From: Alphaproteobacteria bacterium
GTDB taxonomy: Bacteria; Pseudomonadota; Alphaproteobacteria; UBA2966
Direction of reading: 5' to 3'
DNA: 64,000 nt
Assembly (NCBI GenBank): GCA_018650465.1
Contig: JABIFY010000020.1
Location: 124,001-188,000, forward strand
Positions 13,383-46,881 of this stretch are shown here, piece after piece (within the stretch, counting starts at the first letter, position 1; every line of letters begins with the position of its first letter). The notes beneath the pieces are model-generated. The model was not told the DNA's origin. It ran no database searches and saw only the letters and a program-made list of their open reading frames with translations. A program made the translations under genes and the position numbers.

Positions 13383-13453
13383 ACTAAATATCCTGGTAAA
13401 CGTATAATCATGTTCTATTGCGGTAAAATCTTGAATTCTGTTCCGAAAGCGAC

Positions 13454-15042: not shown

Positions 15043-15043
15043 G

Positions 15044-15346: not shown

Positions 15347-15354
15347 GATCAGGT

Positions 15355-15936: not shown

Positions 15937-15944
15937 GATTTTGT

Positions 15945-16673: not shown

Positions 16674-16798
16674 GGTAAAGTCTCCACAAAAGAGGGCACG
16701 TTATTTCATCAAGCTAATTCAGACATAGCCACAGACTGTCTCAACCAGGACATAGATTCTCTGAAAGGCGACATGTGGGATCAAATCTCGAACAAATA

Positions 16799-19234: not shown

Positions 19235-19439
19235 TTCTCAACCTCTTGGTTCGATCTTATATTTGCGTCATCTCAATTCTTCGCCATCAATGAAGGATGC
19301 AACATGATCTTTCTGTCCACATTGCGACCTTCAGGTGTCCGGAAAAGACGCCTTCAGAGCAATGAACGGCGCACCTGCGTTAGACCCTGTCCAAACTGAA
19401 CGACATGATCCTGCCAGAAAAACCACACGGAGATTACGA

Positions 19440-23684: not shown

Positions 23685-23791
23685 ATTTTGTGTCGTTGAT
23701 CCTAAAGGAAGTGACTGTTCAAAGACAGCTGATGTGTTGTATTCAATGGCAAGTATTTTTCTTTGGGCGACCTTTCAGAAACGAGATAATT

Positions 23792-27089: not shown

Positions 27090-28664
27090 ATGGGTTCAGA
27101 TAAAAAAGACGATAGTATACTTATGTCATCGGCTTCGCGTCGTGGCTTTTTGACAGGTGCGTCAGCGCTGGGTGTGGCTGCTGCTATGGCGCCGTCATCT
27201 GTGATGGCTGCATCACCTAAAAAGGGTGGTCACTTCCGCCTTGGCCTGGGGCATGGATCAACGACCGATTCACTCGATCCTGCGACATTTGAAAACCTGT
27301 ATATGCAGGTTGTTGGCGCGACCTTGCGTAACGGCCTGACCGAAGTTGATCAAAACGGCAATTTGGTACCTGAGCTTGCAGAAAGCTTTCATGCCTCCCC
27401 CGATGGCCGGGTCTGGTCCTTCAAGCTGCGCCAAGGCGTTAAATTCCACAATGGCAAAACCATGGATTCAGGTGACGTCATCGCCTCGATCAATCACCAC
27501 CGTGGCAAGGACAGCAAATCAGCTGCCAAAAAACTGTTGCAGCCGATTATTGAAATGAAGGCAGACGGCCCTAATGCACTGGTCATTACCTTGCAGGATG
27601 GCAATGCCGATTTCCCGTATATCATCAGTGATTATCATATTCCGATTATGCCGAAGATGGGCAATGGCGTGGACTGGAAATCAGGTGTTGGAACCGGCGC
27701 CATGGTGCTGCAGAAATATGAAGCCGGTGTGCGCACGACCATGAAGCGTAACCCGAATTACTTCAAAAAAGGCTTCGGCCATTTTGACAGCGCCGAGGTT
27801 ATTACCATTGCGGATGCAACAGCCCGCACCAATGCCCTGACCACCGGCGAAATTGATGCCATGGACAAGGTGGACCTGAAAACAGCCCATTTGCTCAAGC
27901 GTCGCAAGGGTTTGCGTCTTCTGGAAGCCAGTGGCAACCAGCACTATACCTTTACCATGCGCTGTGACACACCACCGTTTGACAATGTCCATGTACGTCA
28001 GGCTTTGAAGTATTCCATTGACCGCGAAGCCATCATGAAGACTGTTCTCAAAGGCCATGGCGCTATTGGCAACGACCATCCGATTTCAGCCTCCAGCCCG
28101 CAGCATGCCAGTTCTTTGCCGCAAAAATCTTATGACATCGATAAGGCAAAATTCCATTTGAAAAAGGCTGGCATGTCCAGCCTGAAAATCGATCTGTCGG
28201 CTGCTGATTCGGCCTTTGCCGGTTCTGTCGATGCCGCCATTCTGTTCAAAGAGCATGCCCGGCCTGCAGGCATTGATATCAATGTCATCCGCGAGCCAAA
28301 CGATGGCTATTGGTCAAAAGTATGGATGCAAAAGCCTTTCTGTGCAGTGTACTGGGGTGGTCGTCCAACGGCTGACTGGATGTTCTCAACGGCCTATGCC
28401 GCCGATGCGGCATGGAACGACAGCTTCTGGCAGCACCCACATTTCAATGAACTGTTGCTGAAAGCACGGGCTGAACTGGATACAGGCAAACGCAACGCCA
28501 TGTATGCCGAAATGCAGCAAATTGTCAGCGACGAAGGCGGTGTTTTGATCCCCATGTTCGCCAACTATGTCATGGCTATGAGTGACAAGGTGGAGCATGG
28601 CGATGTGGCTGCCAACTGGGCCATGGATGGCTTCAAGGCCATCGAGCGCTGGTGGTTTGGCTAA
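27090..28664 (+). CDS. ABC transporter substrate-binding protein, peptide/nickel (SBP_bac_5) family
   Basis: 524 residues with a twin-arginine-type leader (SRRGFLTGASALGVAAAMAPSSVMA), so it is exported to the periplasm, probably folded. The mature part shows the family-5 solute-binding fold: DSLDPATFENLYMQVV, AESFHASPDGRVWSFKLRQGVKFHNGK, DNVHVRQALKYSIDREAIMK and the C-terminal MYAEMQQIVSDEGGVLIPMF. GGGAGGA precedes the ATG at 27090. It heads a transporter operon with two permeases and a fused ATPase. Relatives bind oligopeptides, opines, nickel or quaternary amines; the betBA and carnitine neighbourhood suggests a trimethylammonium, creatine-like or peptide-linked substrate. Confidence 0.9.
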   Translation: MGSDKKDDSILMSSASRRGFLTGASALGVAAAMAPSSVMAASPKKGGHFRLGLGHGSTTDSLDPATFENLYMQVVGATLRNGLTEVDQNGNLVPELAESFHASPDGRVWSFKLRQGVKFHNGKTMDSGDVIASINHHRGKDSKSAAKKLLQPIIEMKADGPNALVITLQDGNADFPYIISDYHIPIMPKMGNGVDWKSGVGTGAMVLQKYEAGVRTTMKRNPNYFKKGFGHFDSAEVITIADATARTNALTTGEIDAMDKVDLKTAHLLKRRKGLRLLEASGNQHYTFTMRCDTPPFDNVHVRQALKYSIDREAIMKTVLKGHGAIGNDHPISASSPQHASSLPQKSYDIDKAKFHLKKAGMSSLKIDLSAADSAFAGSVDAAILFKEHARPAGIDINVIREPNDGYWSKVWMQKPFCAVYWGGRPTADWMFSTAYAADAAWNDSFWQHPHFNELLLKARAELDTGKRNAMYAEMQQIVSDEGGVLIPMFANYVMAMSDKVEHGDVAANWAMDGFKAIERWWFG

Positions 28665-28692
28665 GAACGGCTGACGGGCGGGTTCGCTCAAG

Positions 28693-29649
28693 ATGCCGCA
28701 ACTGGTGAAAATGGTGGTCCAGCGCTTGGCGCTGGGCCTCCTTACCCTTTTTGTCGTTTCGGTCATCATATTTCTCGGTGTTGAGTTACTGCCGGGAGAT
28801 TTGACGGAAGCGATACTGGGCCAATCGGCAACCCCGGAAACCGTTGCCGCTTTCCGGCGGGAACTTGGCCTCGACCTGCCACCCCATACGCGTTATCTGG
28901 AATGGCTTGGCAATATTTTGCAGGGCGACCTGGGCCGATCATTGGCCAATGGTCGTGAAATTTCCGAACTGATCAGCTGGCGGCTTTACAACACACTTTT
29001 CCTTGCAGCTATCGCGGCCGTAATTGCTGTGCCTCTTGCATTGGTGTTGGGCGTAATGGCGGCTTTGCACCGCAACAGTCTTTTTGATCGCGTCATCAAT
29101 ATCACAACCCTGACATCTATTTCTTTTCCTGAATTTTTTGTTGCTTACATTTTGATTTTGTTTCTTTCGGTGAATGCAGGCTGGTTCCCCAGCATTTCGA
29201 ACGTCGGCTCAGAGATGCCGTTCTGGGATCGCGTTTTCCGATGCATCTTGCCAGCCCTGACCCTGACTCTGGTTGTCGTGGCACACATGATGCGCATGAC
29301 CCGGGCAGCGATTATCAATCTGTTGGCCAGCCCCTATATTGAAATGGCCAATCTCAAAGGCCTGACCCGCACGCGGATCATTGTCCGCCATGCCCTGCCC
29401 AATGCTCTGGCACCAATCATCAATGTAATTGTGATCAACCTGGCATATCTGGTTGTTGGTGTGGTCGTGGTCGAGGTTGTGTTTGTCTATCCTGGCATGG
29501 GGCAATTACTGGTCGACAGTGTGTCCAAACGTGACATTCCTGTCGTGCAGTCCACCAGCATGTTTTTTGCGGGCGCCTTTGTCCTACTGAATTTGCTCGC
29601 CGATATGTTGGCCATTGTGACCAACCCGCGCCTGTTGCATCCAAAATGA
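28693..29649 (+). CDS. ABC transporter permease (DppB-like)
   Basis: 318 residues with about six membrane segments; the first is VQRLALGLLTLFVVSVIIFL near the N-terminus. The DppB/OppB features are the GVELLPGD motif after TM1, RRELGLDLPPHTRYLEWLGNILQGDLGRS, and the cytoplasmic EAA-like loop EMANLKGLTRTRIIVRHALPNAL that docks onto the ATPase. It forms half of the inner-membrane channel with the next gene, 7 nt downstream. It lies 28 nt after the substrate-binding protein in one operon. Confidence 0.93.
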   Translation: MPQLVKMVVQRLALGLLTLFVVSVIIFLGVELLPGDLTEAILGQSATPETVAAFRRELGLDLPPHTRYLEWLGNILQGDLGRSLANGREISELISWRLYNTLFLAAIAAVIAVPLALVLGVMAALHRNSLFDRVINITTLTSISFPEFFVAYILILFLSVNAGWFPSISNVGSEMPFWDRVFRCILPALTLTLVVVAHMMRMTRAAIINLLASPYIEMANLKGLTRTRIIVRHALPNALAPIINVIVINLAYLVVGVVVVEVVFVYPGMGQLLVDSVSKRDIPVVQSTSMFFAGAFVLLNLLADMLAIVTNPRLLHPK

Positions 29650-29656
29650 GGCCGTC

Positions 29657-30490
29657 ATGAAAACCGTCCTCAAACTATTTATGGAAGCCCCGTGGAGCGG
29701 CCGATTTGGATTGCTCGTCATCGCGATTTACATCATGCTGGCTGTTTTCGCACCTGTTCTGACACCCTTTGGTGAATCAGAAATCGTTGCAGATGCGTTT
29801 GAGCCCTGGGGCGGCGCATACCTTCTTGGCACAGATAATCTGGGCCGGGATATGTTCACACGCCTGATATATGGCGGGCGAAATACCATTGGCATCGCCT
29901 TTCTGACAACAATGCTTGCCTTCCTGGTCGGCGGCGTATTGGGATTTGTGGCGGCGGCGATGGGCGGCTGGATTGATCAGCTGCTGGGCCGCCTGGTTGA
30001 TGTCATGATGGCGATCCCGACCCTGATTTTTGCCCTGTTGATCCTGACCATTACGGGGACCTCCATTCCGGTTTTGATTGTTGTAATCGCCCTGTTGGAT
30101 TCCACCCGTGTTTTCCGCCTGGCGCGCGCCGTTGCCATGAATATTGTAGTGATGGACTATGTCGAAGCCGCTAGACTGCGCGGTGAAGGTCTGTGGTGGA
30201 TCATCTGGCGCGAGGTCCTGCCCAACGCCATGCCGCCCCTTGTTGCCGAGTTTGGCCTGCGGTTTTGCTTCGTCTTCTTGTTTATCAGCGCGCTCAGTTT
30301 CTTGGGGTTAGGCATTCAGCCACCGACAGCGGACTGGGGCAGTATGGTGCGTGATAATGCGACACTGATCACATACGGCGATGTGACGCCGTTGCTGCCC
30401 GCTGGTGCAATCGCGTTGCTGACTGTGGCTGTAAACTTTGTCGTCGATTTCTTCCTGCATAAAACAAGTGGACTGCGCGATGAACACTAA
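29657..30490 (+). CDS. ABC transporter permease (DppC-like)
   Basis: 277 residues with five to six membrane spans. DppC/OppC traits are the HLLGTDNLGRDMFTRLIYGGR-like stretch after TM1 (here YLLGTDNLGRDMFTRLIYG), the EAA loop YVEAARLRGEGLWWIIWREVLPN, and LSFLGLGIQPPTADWGSMV near the C-terminus. It pairs with the DppB-like permease. The ATPase gene starts 11 nt before its stop codon, indicating coupled translation. Confidence 0.93.
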   Translation: MKTVLKLFMEAPWSGRFGLLVIAIYIMLAVFAPVLTPFGESEIVADAFEPWGGAYLLGTDNLGRDMFTRLIYGGRNTIGIAFLTTMLAFLVGGVLGFVAAAMGGWIDQLLGRLVDVMMAIPTLIFALLILTITGTSIPVLIVVIALLDSTRVFRLARAVAMNIVVMDYVEAARLRGEGLWWIIWREVLPNAMPPLVAEFGLRFCFVFLFISALSFLGLGIQPPTADWGSMVRDNATLITYGDVTPLLPAGAIALLTVAVNFVVDFFLHKTSGLRDEH

Positions 30491-32111
30491 GGGCGACATC
30501 ATTCTATCCATGCGAGGCCTGCGCATTGAAGGCCAGGCTGATGAGCAATGGCAGGAAATCGTCCACGGGATTGATCTTGATTTGCACCGCGGTGAAGTCA
30601 TGGGCCTTATCGGTGAATCCGGGGCCGGCAAATCAACCATTGGCTTGGCCGCTATGGGTTATGCCAGGCCAGGCTGTCGGATTACGGCTGGCGAAATTAA
30701 TTTTGATGGTATTGATTTACGTACCTCCAGTGAAGATGAATTGCGCGACCTTCGCGGCGTGCGCATATCCTATGTGGCACAAAGTGCGGCAGCGTCTTTC
30801 AATCCGGCCCACCGCCTGATTGACCAGTTTTCGGAAACGCCTGTTCAGCATGGGGTGAAATCCAAGTTCGAAGCGGAAGAAGATGCCCGTGTATTGTTTC
30901 GGCGTCTGAAGTTGCCGTTCCCTGATACCATTGGTAATCGCTATCCCCATCAGGTCTCTGGCGGCCAGTTGCAGCGAGCCATGACCGCCATGGCCATGTC
31001 ATGCCGTCCCGACTTGATCATATTTGATGAACCGACCACGGCTCTGGATGTGACGACCCAGATTGAAGTGCTGGCGGCGATCAAGGATGTGGTCAAGGAA
31101 TTTAACACGGCGGCGATCTATGTCACTCATGACCTGGCCGTCGTGGCCCAGATGGCCGACCGGATTATGGTCTTGCGCCACGGCAACATGATTGAAGAAG
31201 GCAATGCGCGCGACATGCTGGCCAACCCGAAAGATCCTTACACACGGGATTTATTGGCCGTGCGCACTTTTGCCAAGGATGATCTTGATCTCATACCCCA
31301 TGAAACACCTTTGCTGAAGGTGGAGAATGTCACGGCAAGCTATACCGGCGGCGTCAAGGTCTTGCATGACGTCAGTATACAAATACCGCGTGGGCGCACG
31401 GTGGCGGTTGTAGGTGAAAGTGGCAGCGGTAAAAGTACTCTGGCGCGCGCCATCACGGGTCTGTTGCCCCCCGAATCCGGTCGGGTAATGTATGAAGGTG
31501 AGCCCCTGCCTGTGGCGCTGGAACAACGCGGACGCGAACAGTTACGCCGCATGCAAATGATCTATCAGATGCCGGATACGGCTCTGAACCCGCGCCAGCG
31601 CATCCGCGAAATTATTGGCCGCCCGCTCAGCTTCTATCTTGATCTGCACGGCGCAAAAAAAGAGGCCCGTATCCGCGAGTTGCTGGAAATGATCGAGATG
31701 AACCCGGATGAATATATTGATCGTCTGCCGGGGGAATTATCTGGCGGTCAAAAACAACGCATCTGCATTGCCCGCGCTTTGGCCGCTGAGCCTGACCTGA
31801 TCATCTGCGACGAAGTAACCTCGGCCCTTGATCAATTGGTGGCGGAAGAAATTCTCAAACTGCTGCAACGCCTGCAAGACGAAGTGAATGTTTCTTACCT
31901 GTTTATCACCCACGACCTGGCAACCGTGCGGGCCATTGCCGATGATATTGTGGTGATGTTGCAGGGTCGTGTGGTTGAACAAGGACCAAAAGATGAAGTC
32001 CTGACGCCGCCCCACCATGAATATACCGACCTGTTGCTTTCATCAGTGCCTGAAATGGATCCGGATTGGCTGGACCGTTTGCTGGCTGAACGACAGCTCG
32101 CAAAAACCTGA
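30480..32111 (+). CDS. ABC transporter ATPase with two nucleotide-binding domains (DppD-DppF fusion)
   Basis: 543 residues from the ATG at 30480 (MNTKGD), which overlaps the permease end by 11 nt; codons upstream to 30438 are only read-through of the other frame. Two complete ABC domains are present: Walker A GESGAGKSTIG with signature VSGGQLQRAM and Walker B LIIFDEPTTALD in the first half, and Walker A GESGSGKSTLA with signature LSGGQKQRIC and LIICDEVTSALD in the second. The arrangement is that of GsiA/YejF-type fused importer ATPases. One polypeptide therefore energises the two permeases. It closes the transporter genes; a MetE-like gene follows after 16 nt. Confidence 0.93.
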   Translation: MNTKGDIILSMRGLRIEGQADEQWQEIVHGIDLDLHRGEVMGLIGESGAGKSTIGLAAMGYARPGCRITAGEINFDGIDLRTSSEDELRDLRGVRISYVAQSAAASFNPAHRLIDQFSETPVQHGVKSKFEAEEDARVLFRRLKLPFPDTIGNRYPHQVSGGQLQRAMTAMAMSCRPDLIIFDEPTTALDVTTQIEVLAAIKDVVKEFNTAAIYVTHDLAVVAQMADRIMVLRHGNMIEEGNARDMLANPKDPYTRDLLAVRTFAKDDLDLIPHETPLLKVENVTASYTGGVKVLHDVSIQIPRGRTVAVVGESGSGKSTLARAITGLLPPESGRVMYEGEPLPVALEQRGREQLRRMQMIYQMPDTALNPRQRIREIIGRPLSFYLDLHGAKKEARIRELLEMIEMNPDEYIDRLPGELSGGQKQRICIARALAAEPDLIICDEVTSALDQLVAEEILKLLQRLQDEVNVSYLFITHDLATVRAIADDIVVMLQGRVVEQGPKDEVLTPPHHEYTDLLLSSVPEMDPDWLDRLLAERQLAKT

Positions 32112-32127: not shown

Positions 32128-33186
32128 TTGGTTCAGACAACTTGCATTGGCGCCTGGCCCAAACCAGTTTCTCTCGGGGGCGGTGATTGGCAGGAAATTG
32201 AACCTGACGCTGCTGGCACCATTGACAGTGATGCACAGGGATTTTCCTATACCGCAGGCGAAGCCAGAAAATTTGATGAAGGTGTTCTGAACCAAGCCAC
32301 TGCTGAAGCCGTCAGAGACCAGGTTGCATGTGGCATTGATGTGCCAACTGATGGTGAGATGCGTCGGGAAAATTATATTCACTATCACTGCCGTCATTTA
32401 GACGGCATCGATTTTGACAATCTAACATCAAAGATACATCGAAACGGCGCTGCCATCGCCAACTTGCCGACGATAACAAGCGAAGTAAGACCCAAGGGCG
32501 ATCACTTTCTTGATCGAGATTTTGCAATTGCCCAGGCGGCAACCGACAGGCCTGTGAAAATCACGATACCAGGCCCCCTGACAATCATCGATACAACGGC
32601 CAACGAAGCTTACGAAAATGAGCGGGATCTGGCCATGGACCTGGCTGCCGCCCTTAATTTCGAAATCCGGACCTTGGTTGCGGCGGGCTGTCGGTATATC
32701 CAGGTGGACGAACCTGTTTTTGCGCGCCGGGTTGATGACGCATTGAACTTCGGTGTGGAAAGCCTGGCAAAATGTTTTGAAGGAGTGCCTTCAGGTGTCA
32801 CCCGTGTGATGCATATGTGTTGTGGTTATCCTGGCCACCTTGATGACGAGGATTACCCCAAGGCAGATGTCGACAGCTATTTCAAACTGGCGCGGGAGCT
32901 GGATGATTGCGGCGTTGACCAGGTTTCTCTGGAACACGCCCACCGGGCCAATGATCTGTCTTTACTTGAGTTTTTTCAAAAGTCTTCCGTGATATTGGGG
33001 GCCATTGATGTCGCCCGAAGCCGGATCGAGTCGGTTGACGAGGTCAGGATTTTGCTGAAAAGAGCTTTGATGCATATCGACGCAGATCGGCTGATCGCAG
33101 CCCCGGACTGTGGCCTGATCCTTCTGGATCGCGATACCGCCATGGCCAAATTGCGCAACATGTGCGCCGCGGCAAAAACGGTCTAA
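32128..33186 (+). CDS. Short MetE-like (cobalamin-independent methionine synthase C-terminal domain / core-MetE) methyltransferase
   Basis: 352 residues if it starts at the TTG at 32128, placing TTCIGAWPKP at the N-terminus as in relatives. It covers only the catalytic C-terminal barrel of MetE and lacks the N-terminal half. The zinc-ligand set is visible: His and Cys in MHMCCGYPGH, the Glu after VDQVSLEHA, and Cys in PDCGL near the C-terminus. IQVDEPVFA is the conserved Asp/Glu motif. Such core-MetE proteins methylate homocysteine or other thiols from donors other than polyglutamyl methyl-THF, some from methyl-corrinoids. Beside a corrinoid pathway it may route betaine-derived methyl groups to methionine. 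The start codon is uncertain; it overlaps the convergent carnitine dehydrogenase by 4 nt. Confidence 0.82.
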   Translation: MVQTTCIGAWPKPVSLGGGDWQEIEPDAAGTIDSDAQGFSYTAGEARKFDEGVLNQATAEAVRDQVACGIDVPTDGEMRRENYIHYHCRHLDGIDFDNLTSKIHRNGAAIANLPTITSEVRPKGDHFLDRDFAIAQAATDRPVKITIPGPLTIIDTTANEAYENERDLAMDLAAALNFEIRTLVAAGCRYIQVDEPVFARRVDDALNFGVESLAKCFEGVPSGVTRVMHMCCGYPGHLDDEDYPKADVDSYFKLARELDDCGVDQVSLEHAHRANDLSLLEFFQKSSVILGAIDVARSRIESVDEVRILLKRALMHIDADRLIAAPDCGLILLDRDTAMAKLRNMCAAAKTV

Positions 33187-34673
33187 CTCTTTGGCTTGAT
33201 GCCCATGCTGCGTCCGGCGTGATCGGGCTTGGCCAGGCTGGCTTGTGCTGTCATTATTTCATCAAGAATTTTCAGAACGGCGGGGTCAGCAGCGCAAGCC
33301 TTGCGAGACCGTCTGCCCACATGCAGCAGCATTTGTTCTCCTGAGGCCAACACTTCATCGTTGCGGCCATGATGAATGCGGTGGAACAGATGGATGCGTT
33401 TGTCGTCCATAGCCAATAATTGGGTCGTGGTGTAGATCGGCTCAAGACTGGCAACTTCCGCCAGATGCATGATGTGGGTCTCTACGGTAAAATAACTGCC
33501 CGTGGCTTCAAGATAATCCGAATCAATACCGATATGGCGGGTAAAGCCATCCGAGGCATCGCCAAAGACCTGCAGATAGCGGCTTTCGGTCATGTGGTTG
33601 TTGTAATCAACCCAGTCCGGCTGCACGACGGTTTCATACAGTCGCAGGGGCTTACTGTAGTCAGGGCTTCCTGATTCTGCCGGGTGGGCACGGGAATATA
33701 GATCGGCTTCAAACCGGGCCAGTTCGGCACCAGCCCCCACGTCATGTACCTTCAAGGCTTGCAAGGTCGAGACCAGGCAATCGTCACGCAGGCGCTCCAT
33801 GTCCCGGAAATCCCCGCCTTTGGCTTGCGCATCAGACTGATCTGCAATCTTGTCGAGCAAGGCTTCATCAAGGTCCGGCACATCCATCAGTTTGGTCCAG
33901 GGCCACTTAAGGGAAGGTCCAAACTGTTCCATGAAGTGACGCATGCCGCCCTCGCCACCGGCGATGCGATAGGTCATGAAAGTACCCATCTGGGCCCAGC
34001 GCAGACCCGCCCCCAAGCGCACGGCCTCGTCGATTTCCTCGACCGTGGCCACATCATCTTTGACCAGCCACAGAGCTTCTCGCCACAAGGCCTCCATCAA
34101 TCGATCCGCGATAAAGCCATCAATTTCCTTGCGCACGATCAGGGGGCGCATGCCAATGGAATTGTAAAAGCTTTGTGCCCGTTCGATGTCTGATGGATCG
34201 GTTTGACCACCGCCACAAATTTCCACCAGAGGTAACAGGTACACCGGATTAAAAGGATGGCCGATCATGAAGCGTGCAGGATGTTTCATATCGGTTTGCA
34301 ATTCGCTGGGCAGCAAACCAGAGGACGAAGAACAGATCAGCGCATCATTTGGCGCATGTGTTTCGATCTCGGCTAAAACTGATTTTTTAAGATCGATACG
34401 TTCTGGCACACTTTCCTGAATGAAACCTGCATCCCTGACAGCTTCGGCCAGGTTGGTCGTGAAAGTCAGCTTGCCCTTTGTTGGACGAGGGGCCAGCGTC
34501 AGTTTCGCCAAAGCCCTGTCCGCATTTTCGATAACTTCGTCCAGTTGGCGTTGGGCTTCAGGGTTGGGATCGAAGACATGCACATCAATACCGTTCCACA
34601 ATAGCCGTGCAGCCCAGCCCGCCCCGATGACACCGCTGCCAATGCAGGCTGCTTTCGATATCATCTCAGTCAT
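33183..34673 (-). CDS. L-carnitine dehydrogenase fused to a betainyl-CoA thioesterase domain
   Basis: 496 residues. The first ~310 are a 3-hydroxyacyl-CoA dehydrogenase-like domain (NAD loop CIGSGVIGAGWAARLL, FIQESVPERIDLK, SSSSGLLPSEL, IGHPFNPVYLLPLVEICGG). The C-terminal ~150 residues are a hotdog thioesterase (ETVVQPDWVDYNNHMTESRYL). This is the architecture of bacterial carnitine 3-dehydrogenases: carnitine is oxidised to 3-dehydrocarnitine and, after cleavage by the neighbouring BKACE enzyme, betainyl-CoA is hydrolysed to glycine betaine and CoA. Its start overlaps the BKACE stop by 4 nt, so the two activities are co-translated. A plain 3-hydroxybutyryl-CoA dehydrogenase is unlikely given the fusion and context. 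Confidence 0.92.
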   Translation of the reverse strand: MTEMISKAACIGSGVIGAGWAARLLWNGIDVHVFDPNPEAQRQLDEVIENADRALAKLTLAPRPTKGKLTFTTNLAEAVRDAGFIQESVPERIDLKKSVLAEIETHAPNDALICSSSSGLLPSELQTDMKHPARFMIGHPFNPVYLLPLVEICGGGQTDPSDIERAQSFYNSIGMRPLIVRKEIDGFIADRLMEALWREALWLVKDDVATVEEIDEAVRLGAGLRWAQMGTFMTYRIAGGEGGMRHFMEQFGPSLKWPWTKLMDVPDLDEALLDKIADQSDAQAKGGDFRDMERLRDDCLVSTLQALKVHDVGAGAELARFEADLYSRAHPAESGSPDYSKPLRLYETVVQPDWVDYNNHMTESRYLQVFGDASDGFTRHIGIDSDYLEATGSYFTVETHIMHLAEVASLEPIYTTTQLLAMDDKRIHLFHRIHHGRNDEVLASGEQMLLHVGRRSRKACAADPAVLKILDEIMTAQASLAKPDHAGRSMGIKPKS

Positions 34674-35563
34674 GCGTGTTTAGTCAGTTTGAGTTTCTTG
34701 CGTACATCTTCAGGGCCCATGATTTTTACGTTCATGGCCTCAAGGATGGTTCGGGCACGTTCCACCAACTGGCCATTGGTAGCTTTGACGCCACGGGAAA
34801 GATAGAGATTATCTTCCAGACCCACGCGCACATTCCCACCCGCCAGAACCGCCATGGAAACATAGGGCAGTTGATCGCGGCCAATGGAGAAGGCTGAGAA
34901 AATGCTGTCTTTTGGCAGGGAATGTACCAGTGACATCAGGGTCAAAGGATCGTTTGGCGCGCCATAGGGAATGCCCATGCAAAGTTGCAGCATGACCGGA
35001 CCATCGATTAGGCCCTCAGCAATCAATTCCTTTGCCAGCACCAAATGGCCGGTGTCAAAGATTTCCAGCTCCGCCCGCACACCCAGTTCCTGCACCCGTT
35101 TGGCCATGGCGCGCAGAGTGCCAGGCGTGTTAGCCATGATGTAATCGGCCTCGGCAAAATTCATGGTGCCAAAATCCAGGGTGCATATTTCCGGCAACAG
35201 TTCTGTGACGTGCAGCAGACGTTCTTCAGCCCCGGCCATATCTGTGCCGGCCTCGTTCAGGGGCAGGGGTGTTTCCGGACCACCCAGGGTCAAGTCACCG
35301 CCCATGCCTGCTGTCAGGTTCAGGATGACGTCGGTGTCCGAAGCCCGGATAAGGTCAACGGCTTGCTTGTACAAGGCCGGGTCGCGCAAAGGCAGGCCGG
35401 ATTCAGGATCACGCACATGAATGTGGGCAATGGCGGCACCCGCCTTGGCCGCTTCGATTGCAGCGTCGGCAATTTGCTGCGGTGTTACGGGCACATGTTC
35501 ACTAATGTGGGCTGATGTCCCGGAACCAGTTACGGCGCATGTGATAAAGACTTCCCAATTCAT
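34670..35563 (-). CDS. BKACE family 3-dehydrocarnitine cleavage enzyme (DUF849)
   Basis: 297 residues of the beta-keto acid cleavage family. Motifs include FITCAVTGSG, the zinc-site AHIHVRDPESG with two histidines, VILNLTAGMGGD, LDFGTMNF and MGIPYGAPND, and the C-terminal GGNVRVGLEDNLYLSRGVKATN. BKACE enzymes condense a beta-keto acid with acetyl-CoA; the dehydrocarnitine member yields betainyl-CoA plus acetoacetate. Placement between gamma-butyrobetaine dioxygenase and carnitine dehydrogenase, overlapping both by 4 nt, makes this specificity very likely. Other members act on 3-keto-5-aminohexanoate, but nothing here suggests that. Confidence 0.92.
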   Translation of the reverse strand: MNWEVFITCAVTGSGTSAHISEHVPVTPQQIADAAIEAAKAGAAIAHIHVRDPESGLPLRDPALYKQAVDLIRASDTDVILNLTAGMGGDLTLGGPETPLPLNEAGTDMAGAEERLLHVTELLPEICTLDFGTMNFAEADYIMANTPGTLRAMAKRVQELGVRAELEIFDTGHLVLAKELIAEGLIDGPVMLQLCMGIPYGAPNDPLTLMSLVHSLPKDSIFSAFSIGRDQLPYVSMAVLAGGNVRVGLEDNLYLSRGVKATNGQLVERARTILEAMNVKIMGPEDVRKKLKLTKHA

Positions 35564-36774
35564 TGGCCTGTATTCCCTGTTGATCGTTTGTTGGCGGCGG
35601 CCCGGCGGCCTCTAGCCAGGATGCGCAAGCGTGAGCGTAGCTCATCGCGTTCTGAATAGCAGCCCTGCAACCAGCGTTCGCCCGTGCCGCTCGAAAAGGC
35701 TTCGCGGCCATGCAAAATTCGACGATTGTCATAGGCAACCAGATCACCTGGTTTGTAATCAAATAACAGCCGATATTTTGGCTGTTTGATCTTCAGGATC
35801 AAATAACGATAGGCCTCATAGGCTGCCTCGACTTTATCAAAGGGTATAGCCAATGGTCCGCGCAGGAATGACGTCATCCGAAGTTCGGAAAGTTCACCAT
35901 TTTCATCAAGCACGAACAAGGGCGTCGTCCAGCGATAATCCGTATCTACAGCGCGATTGGTAAACACCCAGTCCCAGGTGCTGAGTATTTTAAAGACCTC
36001 AGGGTTTTCGGACCTGATGTCCCCGGCGACCTGGAAGCCGTCAACCATGGTCCCGGCCCCGCCCGTCGTGGAATTCTTCAGGCAATGCAAAAACTGCAAT
36101 CCAGGTTGATACTCCCGTGTCGCCAGATCAGTATGGCTGTTCAGGGCCATATCTGTGTAGGCATTGGAATCCGGATTTTCTTTGGTTTTGACATCGTACG
36201 TAAAGCCAAAGTTGGTCGGTCTGATGGGGCCAATGCGACGGACGACCTCGGCCACTTGACCATCAGTTGTCGCAACATTGCTCAACCGAGCCAGACCATA
36301 TTGTGCCAGGTTCTCCAGCCAGATCGCCAGTGCTTCATCATCCTCCAGAATACTCGTGCCGTCCGACGTTGGCGGTTCGGGCATATCTTCGGCTGTCCAG
36401 GTGGTTGCCGCCCGTAGTCCGTCATCTGACACAGGGGTGTTGGAATAATCATGTGCCCGCAACCAGCCGGGCAGATAAATGCTTCCGGGCCAATCAACGT
36501 TCCACTGAATTTCCAACCTGCCATCAGCAGCAACCGACGCTTGCTGTATCGCGATATTCTCCGGCAAGTCGTCGAAATCAATTTCGCGCTCACGCGTCAA
36601 AGGGTTGGTCTCGACTGATCCGGCATCGTTGTCAGCCAGCCAGCAAGCATGATAGCGGCTTTTGCGACCATCTGACCAGGTCAGGTTCAGGACAGATGAG
36701 GAAGCTTCGACCGCTGTGATTTCATGGTCACAAGGGTAGCTGTCAAAATCAGGCGTCAGATAGGAGAGTGTCAT
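35560..36774 (-). CDS. Gamma-butyrobetaine dioxygenase (BBOX-like)
   Basis: 404 residues: an N-terminal DUF971-like domain (YHACWLADNDAGSVETNP) and a C-terminal TauD fold with Fe ligands H-x-D in NSHTDLATREYQPGLQFLHC and the distal His in RRILHGREAFSS. It hydroxylates gamma-butyrobetaine to L-carnitine with Fe(II) and 2-oxoglutarate. The stop overlaps the BKACE start by 4 nt and carnitine dehydrogenase follows, forming a three-step route to glycine betaine, which makes this the best BBOX candidate of the three paralogues. The zinc-binding cysteines of animal BBOX are missing. The C-terminus ends in a basic stretch RGRRAAANKR. Confidence 0.88.
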   Translation of the reverse strand: MTLSYLTPDFDSYPCDHEITAVEASSSVLNLTWSDGRKSRYHACWLADNDAGSVETNPLTREREIDFDDLPENIAIQQASVAADGRLEIQWNVDWPGSIYLPGWLRAHDYSNTPVSDDGLRAATTWTAEDMPEPPTSDGTSILEDDEALAIWLENLAQYGLARLSNVATTDGQVAEVVRRIGPIRPTNFGFTYDVKTKENPDSNAYTDMALNSHTDLATREYQPGLQFLHCLKNSTTGGAGTMVDGFQVAGDIRSENPEVFKILSTWDWVFTNRAVDTDYRWTTPLFVLDENGELSELRMTSFLRGPLAIPFDKVEAAYEAYRYLILKIKQPKYRLLFDYKPGDLVAYDNRRILHGREAFSSGTGERWLQGCYSERDELRSRLRILARGRRAAANKRSTGNTGQ

Positions 36775-36806: not shown

Positions 36807-37388
36807 TCAGGTGCCGCAATGTTTGTCGACCAGTCGCTGCAACAAAGGAGCGTAATAGCCAAATTCCGGTGTAGATATACCCGCGACCTTGCCTTCATCA
36901 TCCCACAATCGGACCTGAACAATGGCGTCCAGACCTGCCTGTGTCCTGAACGCTGCAACTTCATTTTCCGTCATCGGCCCCCCTTGCAGGTTCAGGGTAT
37001 GGATTGAGGCCGCCGACAACCGGTCATGATAGGCCGGGTCAGTTGCGCAAAGATATCGTTTTGCGGCAACGTGATGGCGGACACAATCAACCACGGTTGC
37101 CGGGAAAAAGGCTTTCAGCACAGCTGCACCTGCGCTGTCGTGATAATTGTTGATCCCGCGATCCAGCGCATCTTCAGGAAATTCATTAGTGTAGTGCCCT
37201 ATATCGTGTAGCAAGGCGGCGGCAACGAGGGCATCGTCGGCTCCAGCCTGTTCTGCCAATTGGGCCCCTTGCAGCATATGTTCTGACATCGTGACCTCTT
37301 CGCCCAGATAAGAATCCGCACCGCGACGCGCAAAAATATCGGCGATGAACTCGACAATCGTGTCTGATGAAAGGCTTTGTTCGTTCAT
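36807..37388 (-). CDS. TmpB/PhnZ-like HD-domain mixed-valent diiron oxygenase
   Basis: 193 residues from the ATG at 37388, which overlaps the upstream oxygenase stop by 4 nt; codons to 37460 lie inside that gene. The N-terminus carries the Y-x-x-E motif YLGEEVT with the EHMLQGAQLAE helix, then the metal motif LLHDIGHY, and further ligands in NYHDSAGAAVL and CVRHHVAAKRYLC. These are hallmarks of PhnZ and TmpB, which cleave C-P bonds of 1-hydroxyphosphonates with O2 instead of hydrolysing phosphate. The coupled upstream gene is a BBOX-type oxygenase rather than the PhyH-type PhnY*, so the TmpA/TmpB pathway is the closest match. That pathway converts 2-(trimethylamino)ethylphosphonate to glycine betaine and phosphate. 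Confidence 0.87.
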   Translation of the reverse strand: MNEQSLSSDTIVEFIADIFARRGADSYLGEEVTMSEHMLQGAQLAEQAGADDALVAAALLHDIGHYTNEFPEDALDRGINNYHDSAGAAVLKAFFPATVVDCVRHHVAAKRYLCATDPAYHDRLSAASIHTLNLQGGPMTENEVAAFRTQAGLDAIVQVRLWDDEGKVAGISTPEFGYYAPLLQRLVDKHCGT

Positions 37389-38536
37389 TCTGCTGCCTGA
37401 GAAATTTGCTCTTCCCAAGACTTCAGCGTCGACAGCAAAGAATCCTTCTCGGCATAACATCCTTGTAACCAGCGAGACCCGGTGCCGGAAAAGCCGGTGC
37501 GGGCATGCAAGGTTCGGGTATTGTCAAAAACAATAAGGTCGCCCGGCGCCATTTTAAATGTAATGGCCAGTTCGGGGCGCTCGATGATTTGCGCGAAGTG
37601 GCGATAGGCTGCATACCAGGCTGTCATTTGGTCGTAGGGAATATCAATCGGCGCATCAGCAGACCGGCTATTGAAGCGGATACCTAAGATTTCGCCATCC
37701 GGGGCGAGTTCGATGATCGGGCGTCGGGCCTGTAGCTTGACACCGGCTTCACCGGCATACTCAAACCGCATGCAATAACGGCTTAGCAGATCAAAATTTT
37801 TCGGCGCCTCGGTTTGAAGTAATGTTGCGGCTTTGAACCCGTCAACGATTATGCTTTCGCCGCCATCGACAGTATTTTCCAGGCAAGCCAATAACTGCAA
37901 TGTCGGGACCGGATCACGATATGGGTTATCGGTATGGGCCTGCAGGCCAAGGTTCGTATACGCCAGATTAACTGGTTCAACTTCTGACCGGACTTCAAAC
38001 AAACGACCATAATTGGTTTCGCGGACATAACCGAACAGCTCAGCGGCGTCACAAACAGATCCTTCCTCGCAGGCCACACCTGTCATGACGGCAACGCCAT
38101 AGCGGCGGATTCCAGCCAGCCACTGGCAACGCGCATCCGTGTCCGTTTGGGCGAGAGAAAAATCAATTGTCGGAAGCGCCTTGCTCAGATTGTTGTCCCA
38201 TAGACATGCTGAAGGGCTAAGCCATCCATGTGGTTTTTCGACGCTGGAGTCATAGATATGATTTGCAAGCCAAGCTGACGAGAAGGTGACTGATTTTTCC
38301 TCAGGTAAAAACCGGACAGACAAATTGCCATCACCATCAATCCCGACCCTGTCAATAAAAGTCTCTTCTGGAATATCCAGAACAGTAATGAGCCGTTGTC
38401 CATTGCCAGGGGCGCGCGTTTCCGGATCCCGGGCATTATCGCGCAGCCAAATGGCATGAAAACGACCAGTTTCTCCGTTCGTCCAGTTCACGGAAACCGC
38501 TTTTCCATCATCAATGAGTTTTGATTGTGTCAGCAT
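37385..38536 (-). CDS. TmpA-like Fe(II)/2OG oxygenase (BBOX family), probable (trimethylamino)ethylphosphonate hydroxylase
   Basis: 383 residues, DUF971-like N-terminal domain (RFHAIWLRDNARDPETRAPG) followed by the TauD domain with H-x-D in LQAHTDNPYRDPVPTLQLL and distal His in TRTLHARTGFSG. The family is usually labelled gamma-butyrobetaine hydroxylase. Direct coupling (4-nt overlap) to a PhnZ/TmpB-like diiron oxygenase points instead to TmpA, which installs a 1-hydroxyl on 2-(trimethylamino)ethylphosphonate. The product would go to the next gene's enzyme and give glycine betaine. A true BBOX is separately present at 35560, making a second BBOX less needed. Substrate assignment is inference from neighbourhood. 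Confidence 0.85.
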   Translation of the reverse strand: MLTQSKLIDDGKAVSVNWTNGETGRFHAIWLRDNARDPETRAPGNGQRLITVLDIPEETFIDRVGIDGDGNLSVRFLPEEKSVTFSSAWLANHIYDSSVEKPHGWLSPSACLWDNNLSKALPTIDFSLAQTDTDARCQWLAGIRRYGVAVMTGVACEEGSVCDAAELFGYVRETNYGRLFEVRSEVEPVNLAYTNLGLQAHTDNPYRDPVPTLQLLACLENTVDGGESIIVDGFKAATLLQTEAPKNFDLLSRYCMRFEYAGEAGVKLQARRPIIELAPDGEILGIRFNSRSADAPIDIPYDQMTAWYAAYRHFAQIIERPELAITFKMAPGDLIVFDNTRTLHARTGFSGTGSRWLQGCYAEKDSLLSTLKSWEEQISQAAE

Positions 38537-38553: not shown

Positions 38554-39684
38554 TCAGGGTGTAATGATTTGTCGCACAGCGTCGTTGTTTGCCATGCGGT
38601 CTAAAGCTGTATTGATGTCGTCCAATGGTAAATGATGACTGATTAATTGCTCAACCGGAAATTTTCCTGACTGATAGAGAGCAACATATTTGGGAATATG
38701 GACAGTTGGATTGCAGCTGCCAACATAACTGCCCTTTACTGTCTTGGCGCTGGTGACCAAACTGGCCACATCCAGCGAAAAGGGTGTTTCCGGATTGACC
38801 AAGCCGACGGAAACAACCGTCCCGCCACGATGCACCGCCCCATATGCCGTCTCAAAAGCTTCAACCGTGCCGGCCGTTTCAAAGGCAAAGTCTGTGCCCC
38901 CGTGGCTTAGATCGAGAACGGGGCCCAGGGCCGGGTCCGGGCCTTCCAGCACAACATCAGTGGCACCAATTTTTTTGGCAAACTCCAGCCGCTGTGGTTC
39001 CTTGTCAACAACAATGATTTGTTCTGCCCCGGCCAACCGGGCACCCAGCAAGGCGCTGCTGCCAACGCCGCCTGCCCCCACGATAGTGACCGAATCACCG
39101 GGGCGAACGTTGCCTGTATTCAGCACAGTCCCCGCCCCACACATCACGGCACAGCCAAACAGGGCACCCACGTCCAGTGGCAAATCCCGGGGCAAGGGAA
39201 CAATCGAATGTTCCGAAACCACGGCATATTCAGCAAAAGCAGACAGACCCATATGATGGTGAATATCGACATCTCCCTGACGTAGCCGTGTGCCACCTGC
39301 CAACAGGCCACCGCTTCGATTGGCTTGCAATCCGGGATCACATAGATGGGCCTGCCCGGATACACAGTCTGGACAGACACCACAGGCTGGTTGGAAAACC
39401 AGAACAACGTGATCGCCCGGCGTGACAGATGTAACGCCTGGACCGACTTCTTCGACAATGCCGCTGGCTTCATGTCCGGGAATGATCGGCAAGGGCCAGG
39501 CCCGCACACCGGTGACGACGGAGAGATCCGACCGACACAAACTGGCCGCCGCAATCCGGACCAAAATCTCACCTTTGTGGGGAGCCGAAACTGTGACTTC
39601 CTCGATGTGCAAGGGATGACTATTCGCATATGGTTGCGCCAGACCGGGTTGGCGCAATACAGCAGCGCGAAATTCCAAACTCAT
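38554..39684 (-). CDS. Zinc-dependent medium-chain alcohol dehydrogenase
   Basis: 376 residues. The catalytic zinc ligands are in SLCRSDL (Cys) and PGHEASG (His-Glu); the structural zinc site is four cysteines in CGVCPDCVSGQAHLC. The Rossmann NAD motif is TIVGAGGVGSSALLGARL. It resembles class III-type alcohol dehydrogenases. In the operon it lies between glycerophosphodiesterase and the TmpA-like gene, 17 nt upstream of the latter. Plausible substrates are choline, betaine aldehyde-type alcohols, or formaldehyde released by demethylation, but the sequence does not decide between them. FrmA-type glutathione dependence is not evident. Confidence 0.85.
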   Translation of the reverse strand: MSLEFRAAVLRQPGLAQPYANSHPLHIEEVTVSAPHKGEILVRIAAASLCRSDLSVVTGVRAWPLPIIPGHEASGIVEEVGPGVTSVTPGDHVVLVFQPACGVCPDCVSGQAHLCDPGLQANRSGGLLAGGTRLRQGDVDIHHHMGLSAFAEYAVVSEHSIVPLPRDLPLDVGALFGCAVMCGAGTVLNTGNVRPGDSVTIVGAGGVGSSALLGARLAGAEQIIVVDKEPQRLEFAKKIGATDVVLEGPDPALGPVLDLSHGGTDFAFETAGTVEAFETAYGAVHRGGTVVSVGLVNPETPFSLDVASLVTSAKTVKGSYVGSCNPTVHIPKYVALYQSGKFPVEQLISHHLPLDDINTALDRMANNDAVRQIITP

Positions 39685-39850
39685 CTCAGACCTCCGTGGC
39701 AGTACTTTGGTTGCACAATCATATCCACCCTGCCCCGGTATTGGAAAGTGGTATCTGCATCAAATACAAGCGTCATGTTGCCGCCTGAAATACAGCAACG
39801 GCAACGGAGTTGCCGCCAGGACTTGTGCTTGCCCTGGGTGGCATAAATTT

Positions 39851-40618
39851 CTACGCCCATATGCCGCGCGAAATAAAAACAGATTTCAGCAATTTTGCTT
39901 CATCGGAAATCAGGCCGTCGACACCCAGATCCAGAAGCCGGATCATTTCTGTTTCATCGTTGATGGTCCAGACATGAACCTTCAGCCCCAGCTTGTGTGC
40001 GGTCGAAACAAATAGATTGTCGATGATGGGCAAGCCCCAACGTGTCAGCGGGACCTGCACGCATTGCGCGGAAAATGTCTGTTGTTGGAAGGGAGCTGGA
40101 AAGGGCAGGCTGGTCATACGCAGACGAAAAACATCCATTGGACCCATGGACGTGCAAATATCGGGACCAAAAGATTCTCGGAAAACGTTCAAGCGCTCCC
40201 CGGAAAAAGAGCCGATACAAATACGCTCAATAAGCTTGCTGTCTCTGATTGTTTTTACCAGCGGCGCAACGACAGCATCTGATTTTGGATCCAGATTGAT
40301 CCGCAGATCCGGCCAATGGTCAAACAAATCTTCCAGCAAGGGAATGGGTTCTTGGCCATCAACACGGGCTTGTTTTATTTCTGACCAATCAAGGTCGGAT
40401 ATCAGTCCCTTATGGTGGGTGACGCGATCAAGGCGGTCGTCGTGAAAGGCAATCAAGACGCCGTCCCGTGTCACATGGACATCGGTTTCCAGATAGCGAA
40501 AACCAAGATCAACAGCGCTCTCAAATGCTGCCATGGTATTTTCCGGCTGGTCATTTGACGCACCACGATGTGCCAGGGCAATCGGACCTGTCGTGTCGAG
40601 ATAAGGTGGAACCGTCAT
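39851..40618 (-). CDS. Glycerophosphodiester phosphodiesterase
   Basis: 255 residues, a GDPD TIM barrel. The catalytic signature is complete: AHRGASNDQPENTMAAF, then RYLETDVHVTRDGVLIAFHDDRLDRVT (metal-binding Glu-x-Asp and catalytic His), and LRINLDPKSD in place of the usual E-x-K motif, a mild deviation. VHVWTINDETEMIRLLDLGVDGLISDE is the typical C-terminus. It is cytoplasmic (no signal) and UgpQ-like. It would release choline and glycerol-3-phosphate from glycerophosphocholine, which fits the choline and betaine genes around it. It heads the minus-strand run; the 166-nt gap to the alcohol dehydrogenase holds no gene I can support. Confidence 0.9.
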   Translation of the reverse strand: MTVPPYLDTTGPIALAHRGASNDQPENTMAAFESAVDLGFRYLETDVHVTRDGVLIAFHDDRLDRVTHHKGLISDLDWSEIKQARVDGQEPIPLLEDLFDHWPDLRINLDPKSDAVVAPLVKTIRDSKLIERICIGSFSGERLNVFRESFGPDICTSMGPMDVFRLRMTSLPFPAPFQQQTFSAQCVQVPLTRWGLPIIDNLFVSTAHKLGLKVHVWTINDETEMIRLLDLGVDGLISDEAKLLKSVFISRGIWA

Positions 40619-40770: not shown

Positions 40771-41760
40771 GTGTCATCAGGTTCAGGCAGTATTTTTCAT
40801 GGCGGGGAACCGCCAGAAGACGAGACTGGAAGTCGTCCCTGGCTTGATTTGTCGACCGGAATTTCTCCGGTGGCCTATCCATTTTCAACACTGGCTACTG
40901 CAACCTGGCAAATCCTGCCACGCCAACGAGATGAACAACGCACACTTGACGCGGCAGGCCACTATTTCGGCAATTCCCATCCGGGGAATATTTGCATGGG
41001 GGCCGGATCACAAGCTTTACTACAGGCCATTCCTTGTTTGTTTCCGCCGGGCAAAGTCGCAGTTTTCAGTCCGACCTATGCAGAGCATGCCTGGCGATGG
41101 ACAGAGGTCGGTCATTCAGTCGTTGAAATATTTGATCTGGATAATGTAGAAGCCGATTGCCGCTATGTCGTGCTGGTTAACCCGAACAATCCAACAGGGG
41201 AAAGCCACGCACCCGACAGGTTGCTTGAATTGGCAACGATGCTGGCGGCCAGGGGTGGCTACCTTGTGGTCGACGAAGCTTTCTGCGATGTGATGCCTGA
41301 GATCAGTGTTGCGCGCCATGCAGGTCGACCGGGTTTGCTGGTTCTGCGATCATTTGGGAAGTTCTTTGGCCTGGCAGGCGCGCGAATCGGATTTTTGTTG
41401 GGGCCTTCTGAGTTTATCGCCGCAGTCCGAGAAAAATCCGGATTATGGCCGGTAAATGGACCGGCTCTGGCCATCGCGACAGAGGCTTATGAAGATGTCA
41501 GCTGGATCGAGAGCCACCGGAAAATGTTGACTGAACGGACTGCGCGGTTGCGCGAGTTACTTAAGGGCCACGGTCGGATCATCGGCAGCACGGACCTGTT
41601 TGTTTTGCTGGCAGCAAAGTCTGCACCGGCGTTACTGGCCAAACTGGCAGCACAGCAAATTCATGTCCGGCATTTTCCCGAGAATCCTGAGTGGCTACGG
41701 TTCGGCCTGCCTGACAAAGAAGAAGATTGGCTGCGGCTTCACTCGGGTCTGATCGGCTAA
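40771..41760 (+). CDS. cobD: Threonine-phosphate decarboxylase (aminopropanol-phosphate synthesis)
   Basis: 329 residues from a GTG at 40771 with CGGAGAA upstream. It is a PLP fold-type I enzyme: WLDLSTGISPVAYP, YVVLVNPNNPTGE, LVVDEAFCD, and the Schiff-base lysine in LRSFGKFFGLAGARIGF. CobD (called CobC in Pseudomonas denitrificans) decarboxylates L-threonine-O-3-phosphate to (R)-1-aminopropan-2-yl phosphate, the linker of the cobalamin nucleotide loop. Its product is used by CbiB (55050). First gene of the cobalamin region; its end overlaps the convergent phosphatase gene by 4 nt. Histidinol-phosphate aminotransferase is the family alternative but does not fit the context. Confidence 0.9.
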   Translation: MSSGSGSIFHGGEPPEDETGSRPWLDLSTGISPVAYPFSTLATATWQILPRQRDEQRTLDAAGHYFGNSHPGNICMGAGSQALLQAIPCLFPPGKVAVFSPTYAEHAWRWTEVGHSVVEIFDLDNVEADCRYVVLVNPNNPTGESHAPDRLLELATMLAARGGYLVVDEAFCDVMPEISVARHAGRPGLLVLRSFGKFFGLAGARIGFLLGPSEFIAAVREKSGLWPVNGPALAIATEAYEDVSWIESHRKMLTERTARLRELLKGHGRIIGSTDLFVLLAAKSAPALLAKLAAQQIHVRHFPENPEWLRFGLPDKEEDWLRLHSGLIG

Positions 41761-42404
41761 GTTATATACGACTTGCCAGGCGCTTCGTTCAGGCTCTGCA
41801 ATAACCAGCTGCCGTCCGTATCAACCGGTAAATTTGTCCAGCTTGTCCTGGTCAGGGAAAGCGGGTCGATTTGAAGTCTCAGTGCCTGATCCGGTGTTAA
41901 ATCCAGTGCTAAAGCTACAGCGGCCCGGATCACACCTGCGTGAGCAACAACAATGAAGTTTCCTTCTTCCCGATTTTGTTGTATCGCCGCCTGCACACGC
42001 TGCATCATGTCAAAAAAGCTTTCCCCATGGGGCGGTGCCGTGTGTCCTGGATCCTGCCAAAAGGCTTCGGCATTTCTAATTTCCGGCTCGTCATATGCGC
42101 GCCCGTCCCAGTCGCCAAAATCTTGCTCCCGCAAATCCGGAACCATTTCCAGCGCGGCATTGGCGAAGGCCGGAAAGTCCCGCAAGGCCTCGGCCGTTTG
42201 CTTGCAGCGATCAAGCGGTGAAACCAACCAGCTGGCATCAGACGGCAAGGAACGTGACAACTGTTTCAACACATCATGATCGGGCATTTGCGCATCAATA
42301 TTAGTTGAGCCAATCATTCTTCCCGCCGCATCAGTAGGCGCATGGCGCAGCCACCACCAGCTTGATCTGGATACCACGTTACGATCTGTATTTGCTTGCT
42401 TCAT
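41757..42404 (-). CDS. Histidine phosphatase family protein, probable alpha-ribazole phosphatase (CobC type)
   Basis: About 215 residues from the ATG at 42404 (MKQANTD); upstream in-frame codons reach 42488 but have no ribosome site. Phosphoglycerate-mutase-like motifs are WWWLRHAPTD (catalytic RH), LVSPLDRCKQTAEAL, LREQDFGDWDGRAY and the second His in VVAHAGVIRAAVALAL. The F-G-D-W-x-G-x-x-Y pattern is typical of alpha-ribazole-5'-phosphate phosphatases that dephosphorylate the lower-ligand precursor or the final cobalamin 5'-phosphate. Being flanked by cobD and the CbtAB transporter supports that role. It is divergent from cbtB across a 154-nt gap. Confidence 0.82.
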   Translation of the reverse strand: MKQANTDRNVVSRSSWWWLRHAPTDAAGRMIGSTNIDAQMPDHDVLKQLSRSLPSDASWLVSPLDRCKQTAEALRDFPAFANAALEMVPDLREQDFGDWDGRAYDEPEIRNAEAFWQDPGHTAPPHGESFFDMMQRVQAAIQQNREEGNFIVVAHAGVIRAAVALALDLTPDQALRLQIDPLSLTRTSWTNLPVDTDGSWLLQSLNEAPGKSYIT

Positions 42405-42558
42405 GGAGGATACTCTGCCGATTGATTGGCAATTTGCAACGAGTTTCCTATTGCAATTCCGCTTGATGCAGTTATTCTCCAAAAACAATGTTTTAGCGCT
42501 GACAAAGCGTAAAATATCCGGCGTTTATAACAGCGTGGAATTTCAGGAGGAAGAGCAT

Positions 42559-42744
42559 ATGGCTCAAGTCAAGGTCGCCCAACAAACAGCATCTACAAAT
42601 GTTAAATCTGCACAACTGCTTCAGGCAGGACTTGCGGCATTGCTGGGGATCGGGCTTTTCATGGGCGTTGCATTTTCTAATCCTGCGACTGTTCACAATG
42701 CTGCGCACGATTCACGTCATGGTGTTTCTGTCCCCTGCCACTAA
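42559..42744 (+). CDS. CbtB, small subunit of predicted cobalt transporter
   Basis: A 61-residue protein starting at the ATG at 42559 behind a strong AGGAGGA site (42546-42552); the longer open frame from 42403 has none. It has one membrane helix (LLQAGLAALLGIGLFMGVAFS) and a short tail with histidines ending HDSRHGVSVPCH, the metal-binding motif of CbtB. CbtAB is a predicted cobalt uptake system linked to B12 synthesis. I looked for a cobalamin riboswitch in the 154-nt upstream gap and did not find its conserved box. Confidence 0.88.
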   Translation: MAQVKVAQQTASTNVKSAQLLQAGLAALLGIGLFMGVAFSNPATVHNAAHDSRHGVSVPCH

Positions 42745-42788
42745 TTCCTAAGGGCGTTCACTGTTGACGCTCCGTCCAGAGGCTTTAC

Positions 42789-43547: not shown

Positions 43548-43561
43548 ACAGGCGATTTTCT

Positions 43562-44575: not shown

Positions 44576-44690
44576 GGGGCCTCGGCTTTCAGGTCAGGAT
44601 TGTGATAGTTTCGTGGTGCGGTAGAAACACGTGAAGGCCGCAGAAAAGTTGGCGTGATCATCATGCCAGGCAAGGAACGGGTCAAGTAAG

Positions 44691-46750: not shown

Positions 46751-46881
46751 CGATGTGGTCTCCCGGGACCCTCAAAAAAATACCAGCCTTCGCCTGTGAT
46801 GTTTGGCGCTGAACTTTGGTATCATACCTGAACCATGCATATTGCAGTGGGGTAAAGCGTTCAAGAGGCGATCATCATAGC

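Follow-up and report, generated by a model that had tools for sequence, protein, structure and literature searches.

In the window (the whole 64,000-nucleotide stretch analysed), two adjacent genes quite probably encode a TmpA/TmpB oxidative phosphonate pathway, placed inside a quaternary-amine catabolic operon (Table 1). By curated family cut-offs, the pair itself is assigned to a known kind. The analysis adds two things: the pair sits in a carnitine operon, a placement specific to this genus, and TmpA has a subtype recognisable by residue 287 together with an alcohol dehydrogenase (ADH) gene. This subtype is a new but modest variation on the known TmpA. To our knowledge, there are few ways to use an N-methylated phosphonate, and TmpA/TmpB is one of them.

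Both proteins reach their NCBIfam equivalog cut-offs. TmpA scores 528.2 bits with NF049936 (cut-off 400), and TmpB scores 313.9 bits with NF049941 (cut-off 300). The HD protein stays under the cut-offs of the PhnZ1 model NF052439 (141.7 bits, cut-off 300) and of TIGR03276 (199.8 bits, cut-off 214.6). Also in favour of the pathway, PhnJ is absent from the genome and no PhnX in it reaches the cut-off. Against it stand the replacement of Asn287 by serine in TmpA, a score over the gamma-butyrobetaine dioxygenase cut-off (which is not discriminating), and a search of the genome that found no PhnCDE-type phosphonate importer. The sole strong PhnD-like protein (PF12974) in the genome (L212, 325-1131, minus strand, contig C10 of G000) has no transporter neighbours.

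Table 1. Features of the window around the tmpA-tmpB pair
Feature	Position	Strand	Description
ADH	38554..39684	-	Zinc alcohol dehydrogenase; opens the operon, with 17 nt between it and tmpA; PF08240/PF00107
tmpA	37385..38536	-	383 aa; 2OG/Fe(II) oxygenase, predicted 2-(trimethylamino)ethylphosphonate 1-hydroxylase; matches NF049936 and PDB 6npb
Ser290 codon (AGC) of tmpA	37667..37669	-	Aligns (124 distinct tmpA) with Asn287 of Leisingera TmpA, a phosphonate contact
tmpB	36807..37388	-	HD-domain mixed-valent diiron oxygenase, predicted (R)-1-hydroxy-2-trimethylaminoethylphosphonate oxygenase; matches NF049941 and PDB 6npa
BBOX2	35560..36774	-	BBOX-family paralogue, predicted betaine hydroxylase; TIGR02409 325 (<414.75), NF049936 296 (<400)
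BKACE	34670..35563	-	Beta-keto acid cleavage enzyme; PF05853 E=1.6e-95; shares the operon with carnitine dehydrogenase
Carnitine dehydrogenase	33183..34673	-	L-carnitine 3-dehydrogenase fused to thioesterase-like domain; NF005716 730 bits (cut-off 592), PF13279
Opp/Dpp-type ABC importer	27090..32111	+	SBP5, OppB, OppC, fused OppDF; convergent with the operon
betA	25251-26906		
betB	23690-25249		
BBOX3	21026-22138	-	Third BBOX-family oxygenase; TIGR02409 302, below cut-off
MttB-family gene	19335-20978		Open frame, no in-frame stop
Dimethylglycine/sarcosine-dehydrogenase-like protein	16799-19234		
Corrinoid protein	15945-16673		
MTHFR	13454-14524		
Pterin-binding methyltransferase	12477-13382		
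RACo-type activator	10550-12583		

The tmpA gene adjoins tmpB on its upstream side. The original prediction placed the two genes correctly, with a 4-nt overlap: the tmpB start (ATG, 37388-37386) and the tmpA stop (TGA, 37387-37385) share an ATGA, so the overlap is exactly 4 nt. A mechanical listing of open reading frames puts the TmpB start at 37460. The relatives instead fit the ATG at 37388-37386, shortly downstream of which the alignments to TmpB and PhnZ set in.

The pair belongs to a run of six minus-strand genes, in the order ADH, tmpA, tmpB, BBOX2, BKACE and carnitine dehydrogenase, with gaps of 17, -4, 32, -4 and -4 nt. These tight gaps make a single transcript likely. A betaine/carnitine operon had been proposed, and BKACE and the L-carnitine 3-dehydrogenase do follow tmpB on the same strand. 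The proposal did not mention BBOX2 between tmpB and the carnitine genes, ADH before tmpA, or BBOX3. The BKACE enzyme probably acts on 3-dehydrocarnitine, and the thioesterase-like domain of the dehydrogenase fusion is likely a betainyl-CoA thioesterase.

Just upstream of ADH lies a gene for a glycerophosphodiester phosphodiesterase (39851-40618, minus strand), which is not detected at that place in the genus-mate (L003). It could supply choline from glycerophosphocholine. The gap between the two genes has a promoter-like and a terminator-like match; these are consensus matches only, about as frequent as in shuffled sequence. This gap (39685-39850) contains no Pho box (CTGTCAT-N4-CTGTCAT, up to three mismatches). 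The whole window has ten Pho-box-like matches, against a shuffled mean of 5.1, and none of them precedes the ADH-tmpAB operon.

In the proposed pathway, TmpA (Fe(II)/2OG) would add a hydroxyl group to 2-(trimethylamino)ethylphosphonate (TMAEP) at C1, with R configuration. In TmpB, substrate binding would displace the gate tyrosine, and the Fe(II)/Fe(III) diiron centre would break the C-P bond of this product by oxidation, releasing glycine betaine and phosphate. Carnitine dehydrogenase and BKACE, probably made from the same transcript, would convert carnitine to glycine betaine, and BetA/BetB, encoded a few kb away, would do the same with choline. The phosphonate, carnitine and choline routes would meet at glycine betaine, which would then be demethylated by the products of the neighbouring corrinoid and dimethylglycine-dehydrogenase-type genes. 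The claim that the pair supplies betaine as well as phosphate is plausible on this arrangement, considering the tight operon with carnitine-to-betaine genes, the choline-to-betaine genes nearby and the lack of a Pho-box-like site before the operon. The place of tmpAB in a carnitine/choline-to-betaine cluster would link phosphonate use with the supply of carbon, nitrogen and methyl groups, and not with phosphate alone.

The region 10550-20978 looks like a corrinoid-dependent betaine demethylation cluster; the same organism has O2-dependent oxygenases. It also holds DUF5981 (with MTHFR) and DUF1638 genes. Cobalamin biosynthesis-type genes (CobD-type aminotransferase, CbtA cobalt transporter and others) adjoin the betaine cluster at 40771-48709, fitting corrinoid-dependent demethylation. 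The genome has three clear BBOX-family genes, all inside the window. Upstream of BBOX3, on the same strand, lie an SDR gene (22150-22938) and a HAD hydrolase gene (22950-23684).

By association, the Opp-type importer is a candidate for the uptake of quaternary amines or phosphonates. Its relatives (44-80% identity) occur near tmpAB in Pelagibius (L011), Marinobacter (L053), L134, L141 and L142, some of them truncated by the end of the stretch. After the transporter comes a stand-alone MetE C-terminal-type protein (PF01717; 32017-33186, plus strand). The listed start, which overlaps OppDF, probably lies upstream of the true one. A 60% identical copy lies after tmpB in L141 (at about 7.9 kb), and none was found in L003.

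In Leisingera TmpA, the residues that contact the phosphonate are N187, N287 and R288 (PMC9296572). The window TmpA has N, S and R at these positions (N190, S290 and R291 in its own numbering), and it retains the H/D/H iron ligands and the aromatic cage. Human BBOX1 uses two asparagines (PMC9296572) and has N, N and A. BBOX3, with N, A and H, is unlike TmpA and BBOX1. BBOX2 keeps aromatic residues at the cage positions and has S, S and F at the acid/phosphonate contacts; TMAEP and plain gamma-butyrobetaine are both improbable as its substrate. For the window TmpA, we favour a phosphonate substrate, since Arg288 and the partnership with tmpB point to it, and the serine is a departure. With one of the three contacts changed, TMAEP is only a predicted substrate.

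We compared the residue at position 287 with the gene content upstream, considering tmpA genes directly upstream of tmpB. They come from 80 loci of a genome-collection scan and about 70 whole-genome stretches (127 rows, 124 distinct; the window, with ADH and serine, was excluded). ADH was called present when its gene lay on the same strand no more than 3 kb upstream, and absent when none was seen in at least 2.2 kb of readable upstream sequence. With ADH, the residue is serine or alanine in 20 of 20 rows (19 of 19 distinct). Without ADH, it is asparagine in 97 of 100 rows (95 of 98 distinct), and the other rows have two serines and one histidine. Seven further rows were too near a contig edge to be called. 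Asparagine is missing at 287 in 24 of the 124 distinct tmpA. A naive Fisher test on rows gives 6e-20, a value that ignores kinship and is not usable as a probability.

On the TmpA tree, the ADH state appears in two places, one being the window genus, which neighbours Kiloniella and Pelagibius, and the other a single Rhodobacteraceae clade. A single-clade constraint, with column 287 removed, costs 33.9 log units and is not rejected (AU p 0.096). So, two origins are not proven statistically, and two independent pairs cannot reach significance. When columns were scanned for changes in both ADH clades, 287 was the one clear column; position 152 differs too, less cleanly.

The ADH of the genus-mate (L003) has the same place and is 88% identical to that of the window, which falls under every NCBIfam cut-off shown. 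The two ADH types (window genus and Rhodobacteraceae) are only about 33% identical. The window ADH scores 183-215 bits against the Rhodobacteraceae tmp-linked ADHs and 230 bits against horse liver ADH. This makes separate recruitment of the two types probable, and we rejected shared ADH ancestry as the cause of the link with 287. The Rhodobacteraceae loci are arranged as (MFS)-ADH-tmpA (S/A287)-tmpB-enolase-superfamily gene (L126, 5483-11401; also L013, L022, L023, L026 and L138). The enolase-superfamily gene follows tmpB in most of their ADH loci, and an MFS gene precedes ADH in many. The enolase-superfamily protein is galactonate-dehydratase-like, under equivalog cut-offs.

It is conceivable, although we consider it rather improbable, that two functional types of TmpA exist. 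In this genus and in many Rhodobacteraceae, perhaps twice independently, ADH would have been gained upstream and Asn287 replaced by serine or alanine. Together with ADH, such a TmpA would then act on some quaternary-amine phosphonate that is not plain TMAEP, or TMAEP itself would be processed differently before TmpB. That the ADH-linked TmpA with Ser/Ala287 is a subtype with altered substrate or outcome is, as a rival to the plain pathway, unlikely. Its substrate might be another quaternary phosphonate (longer, hydroxylated or esterified), or its outcome a partial N-demethylation to formaldehyde, with ADH acting on an alcohol or aldehyde derived from substrate or product. The near-complete agreement between ADH and position 287, the scan that singles out this column in both clades, and the enolase-superfamily and MFS genes of the Rhodobacteraceae loci favour such a subtype. 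Nevertheless, it appears in two lineages only, for which a single origin is not rejected, and Arg288 and Asn187 are retained. L139 has N287S without ADH, and L252, also without ADH, sits inside the ADH clade. Moreover, the TmpB of L126, an ADH-type locus, groups with Leisingera TmpB (support 94). TmpB seems therefore interchangeable, and its substrate may be unchanged. If true, another substrate for this subtype would point to an unrecognised natural phosphonate.

A second alternative is that TmpA is the gamma-butyrobetaine hydroxylase of the operon's carnitine branch, with TmpB acting on some other hydroxyphosphonate. We consider it very unlikely. The window TmpA does pass TIGR02409 (gamma-butyrobetaine dioxygenase; 436.8 bits, cut-off 414.75), no second gene in the genome is over this cut-off, Asn287 is lost, and carnitine dehydrogenase shares the operon. 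However, the TIGR02409 score is 91 bits under that of the TmpA model. Six other tmpB-linked TmpAs without ADH, Kiloniella and Mesorhizobium included, pass TIGR02409 as well (423-535 bits), so this match does not discriminate gamma-butyrobetaine use, and a hydroxylase assignment based on it was rejected. Three Rhodobacteraceae tmpB-linked TmpAs fall short of the cut-off (375-394 bits). The window TmpA also groups with TmpB-linked TmpAs, it retains Arg288 where human BBOX1 has alanine, and it is BBOX2 that directly adjoins the carnitine genes. Among solved structures, the best match is TmpA 6npb (E=2e-132, 445 bits), with 182 bits for human BBOX1 and 113 bits for DfmD. The BBOX-type 2OG oxygenase of the original prediction is thus TmpA-like, by its higher TmpA score and its phosphonate-contacting arginine.

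For the HD protein, the best solved structure is TmpB 6npa (E=3e-67, 229 bits), followed by PhnZ with about 109 bits (phmmer against PDB). The predicted Y-x-x-E (here YLGE), HD and KRYL motifs are all found. The diiron ligands (H...HD...H...H...D) and the YxxE gate are intact when aligned with Leisingera TmpB and PhnZ; the ligand motif and the gating function of YxxE are taken from PMC8177086. The equivalents of K108, S126 and R158 are retained. At PhnZ positions 24, 27, 34, 58, 59, 62, 80, 104, 108, 126, 141, 158 and 161, all three proteins (PhnZ, Leisingera TmpB and that of the window) carry the same residue, and position 129 is threonine in PhnZ and the window and serine in Leisingera TmpB. 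On the TmpB tree, the protein groups among tmpA-linked TmpBs, as foreseen for a PhnZ/TmpB-like oxygenase. This tree is weakly resolved around a single PhnZ outgroup, so the distinction between TmpB and PhnZ is carried by the family cut-offs. A PhnZ (aminoethylphosphonate) assignment is out on scores. Pfam alone gives only 'HD domain', yet an ordinary HD phosphohydrolase can be dismissed as virtually impossible, considering the gate and six-residue diiron set, the TmpB equivalog cut-off reached, and phmmer matches in PDB (E<=0.001) to TmpB and PhnZ entries only.

The tmpA-tmpB pair is widespread in Alphaproteobacteria. Adjacent tmpA and tmpB recur in Kiloniella, Sneathiella, Mesorhizobium and Rhodobacteraceae, and also in Marinobacter. 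In a set of 41 genomes, from close and more distant relatives, no member of the order apart from this genome and its one genus-mate has a TmpB over cut-off. The count is 14 of 385 genomes in the class sample and 51 of 395 in the family of G036 (Rhodobacteraceae, judged by kin). Of all the loci read, only the window and L003/L137 (both from one contig of the single genus-mate) show the carnitine linkage. Because it is limited to one genus (two genomes), it bears on this lineage and not on TmpAB generally. In L142 (about 0-8.7 kb), tmpA-tmpB is followed by a second BBOX-family gene (32% identical to the window TmpA), another BBOX paralogue beside tmpB, and then by an Opp-type transporter.

The closest known system is the TmpA/TmpB of Leisingera caerulea (PDB 6npb/6npa; Rajakovich 2019, as described in PMC10574752 and PMC8177086). 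The window shares with it the tmpA-tmpB pair, both protein families, the TmpB active site, and the Asn187, Arg288 and aromatic cage of TmpA. It differs by the serine in place of Asn287 and by its setting: the operon also holds ADH, a BBOX paralogue and carnitine genes. The PhnY/PhnZ system of the 2-aminoethylphosphonate pathway also has an HD diiron oxygenase with the YxxE gate and the same metal ligands. However, the window protein is closer to TmpB by score (229 against about 109 bits), and its partner is a BBOX-type TmpA. Human BBOX1 shares the 2OG oxygenase family, the GBBH-like N-terminal domain and the quaternary-ammonium cage, but it has alanine in place of the phosphonate-contacting arginine. 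Finally, DfmD of dehydrofosmidomycin biosynthesis is, like TmpA, a BBOX-family enzyme with TMAEP as its substrate (PMC9296572). Nevertheless, it is distant from the window TmpA (113 bits, against 445 to TmpA) and biosynthetic, catalysing desaturation and rearrangement.
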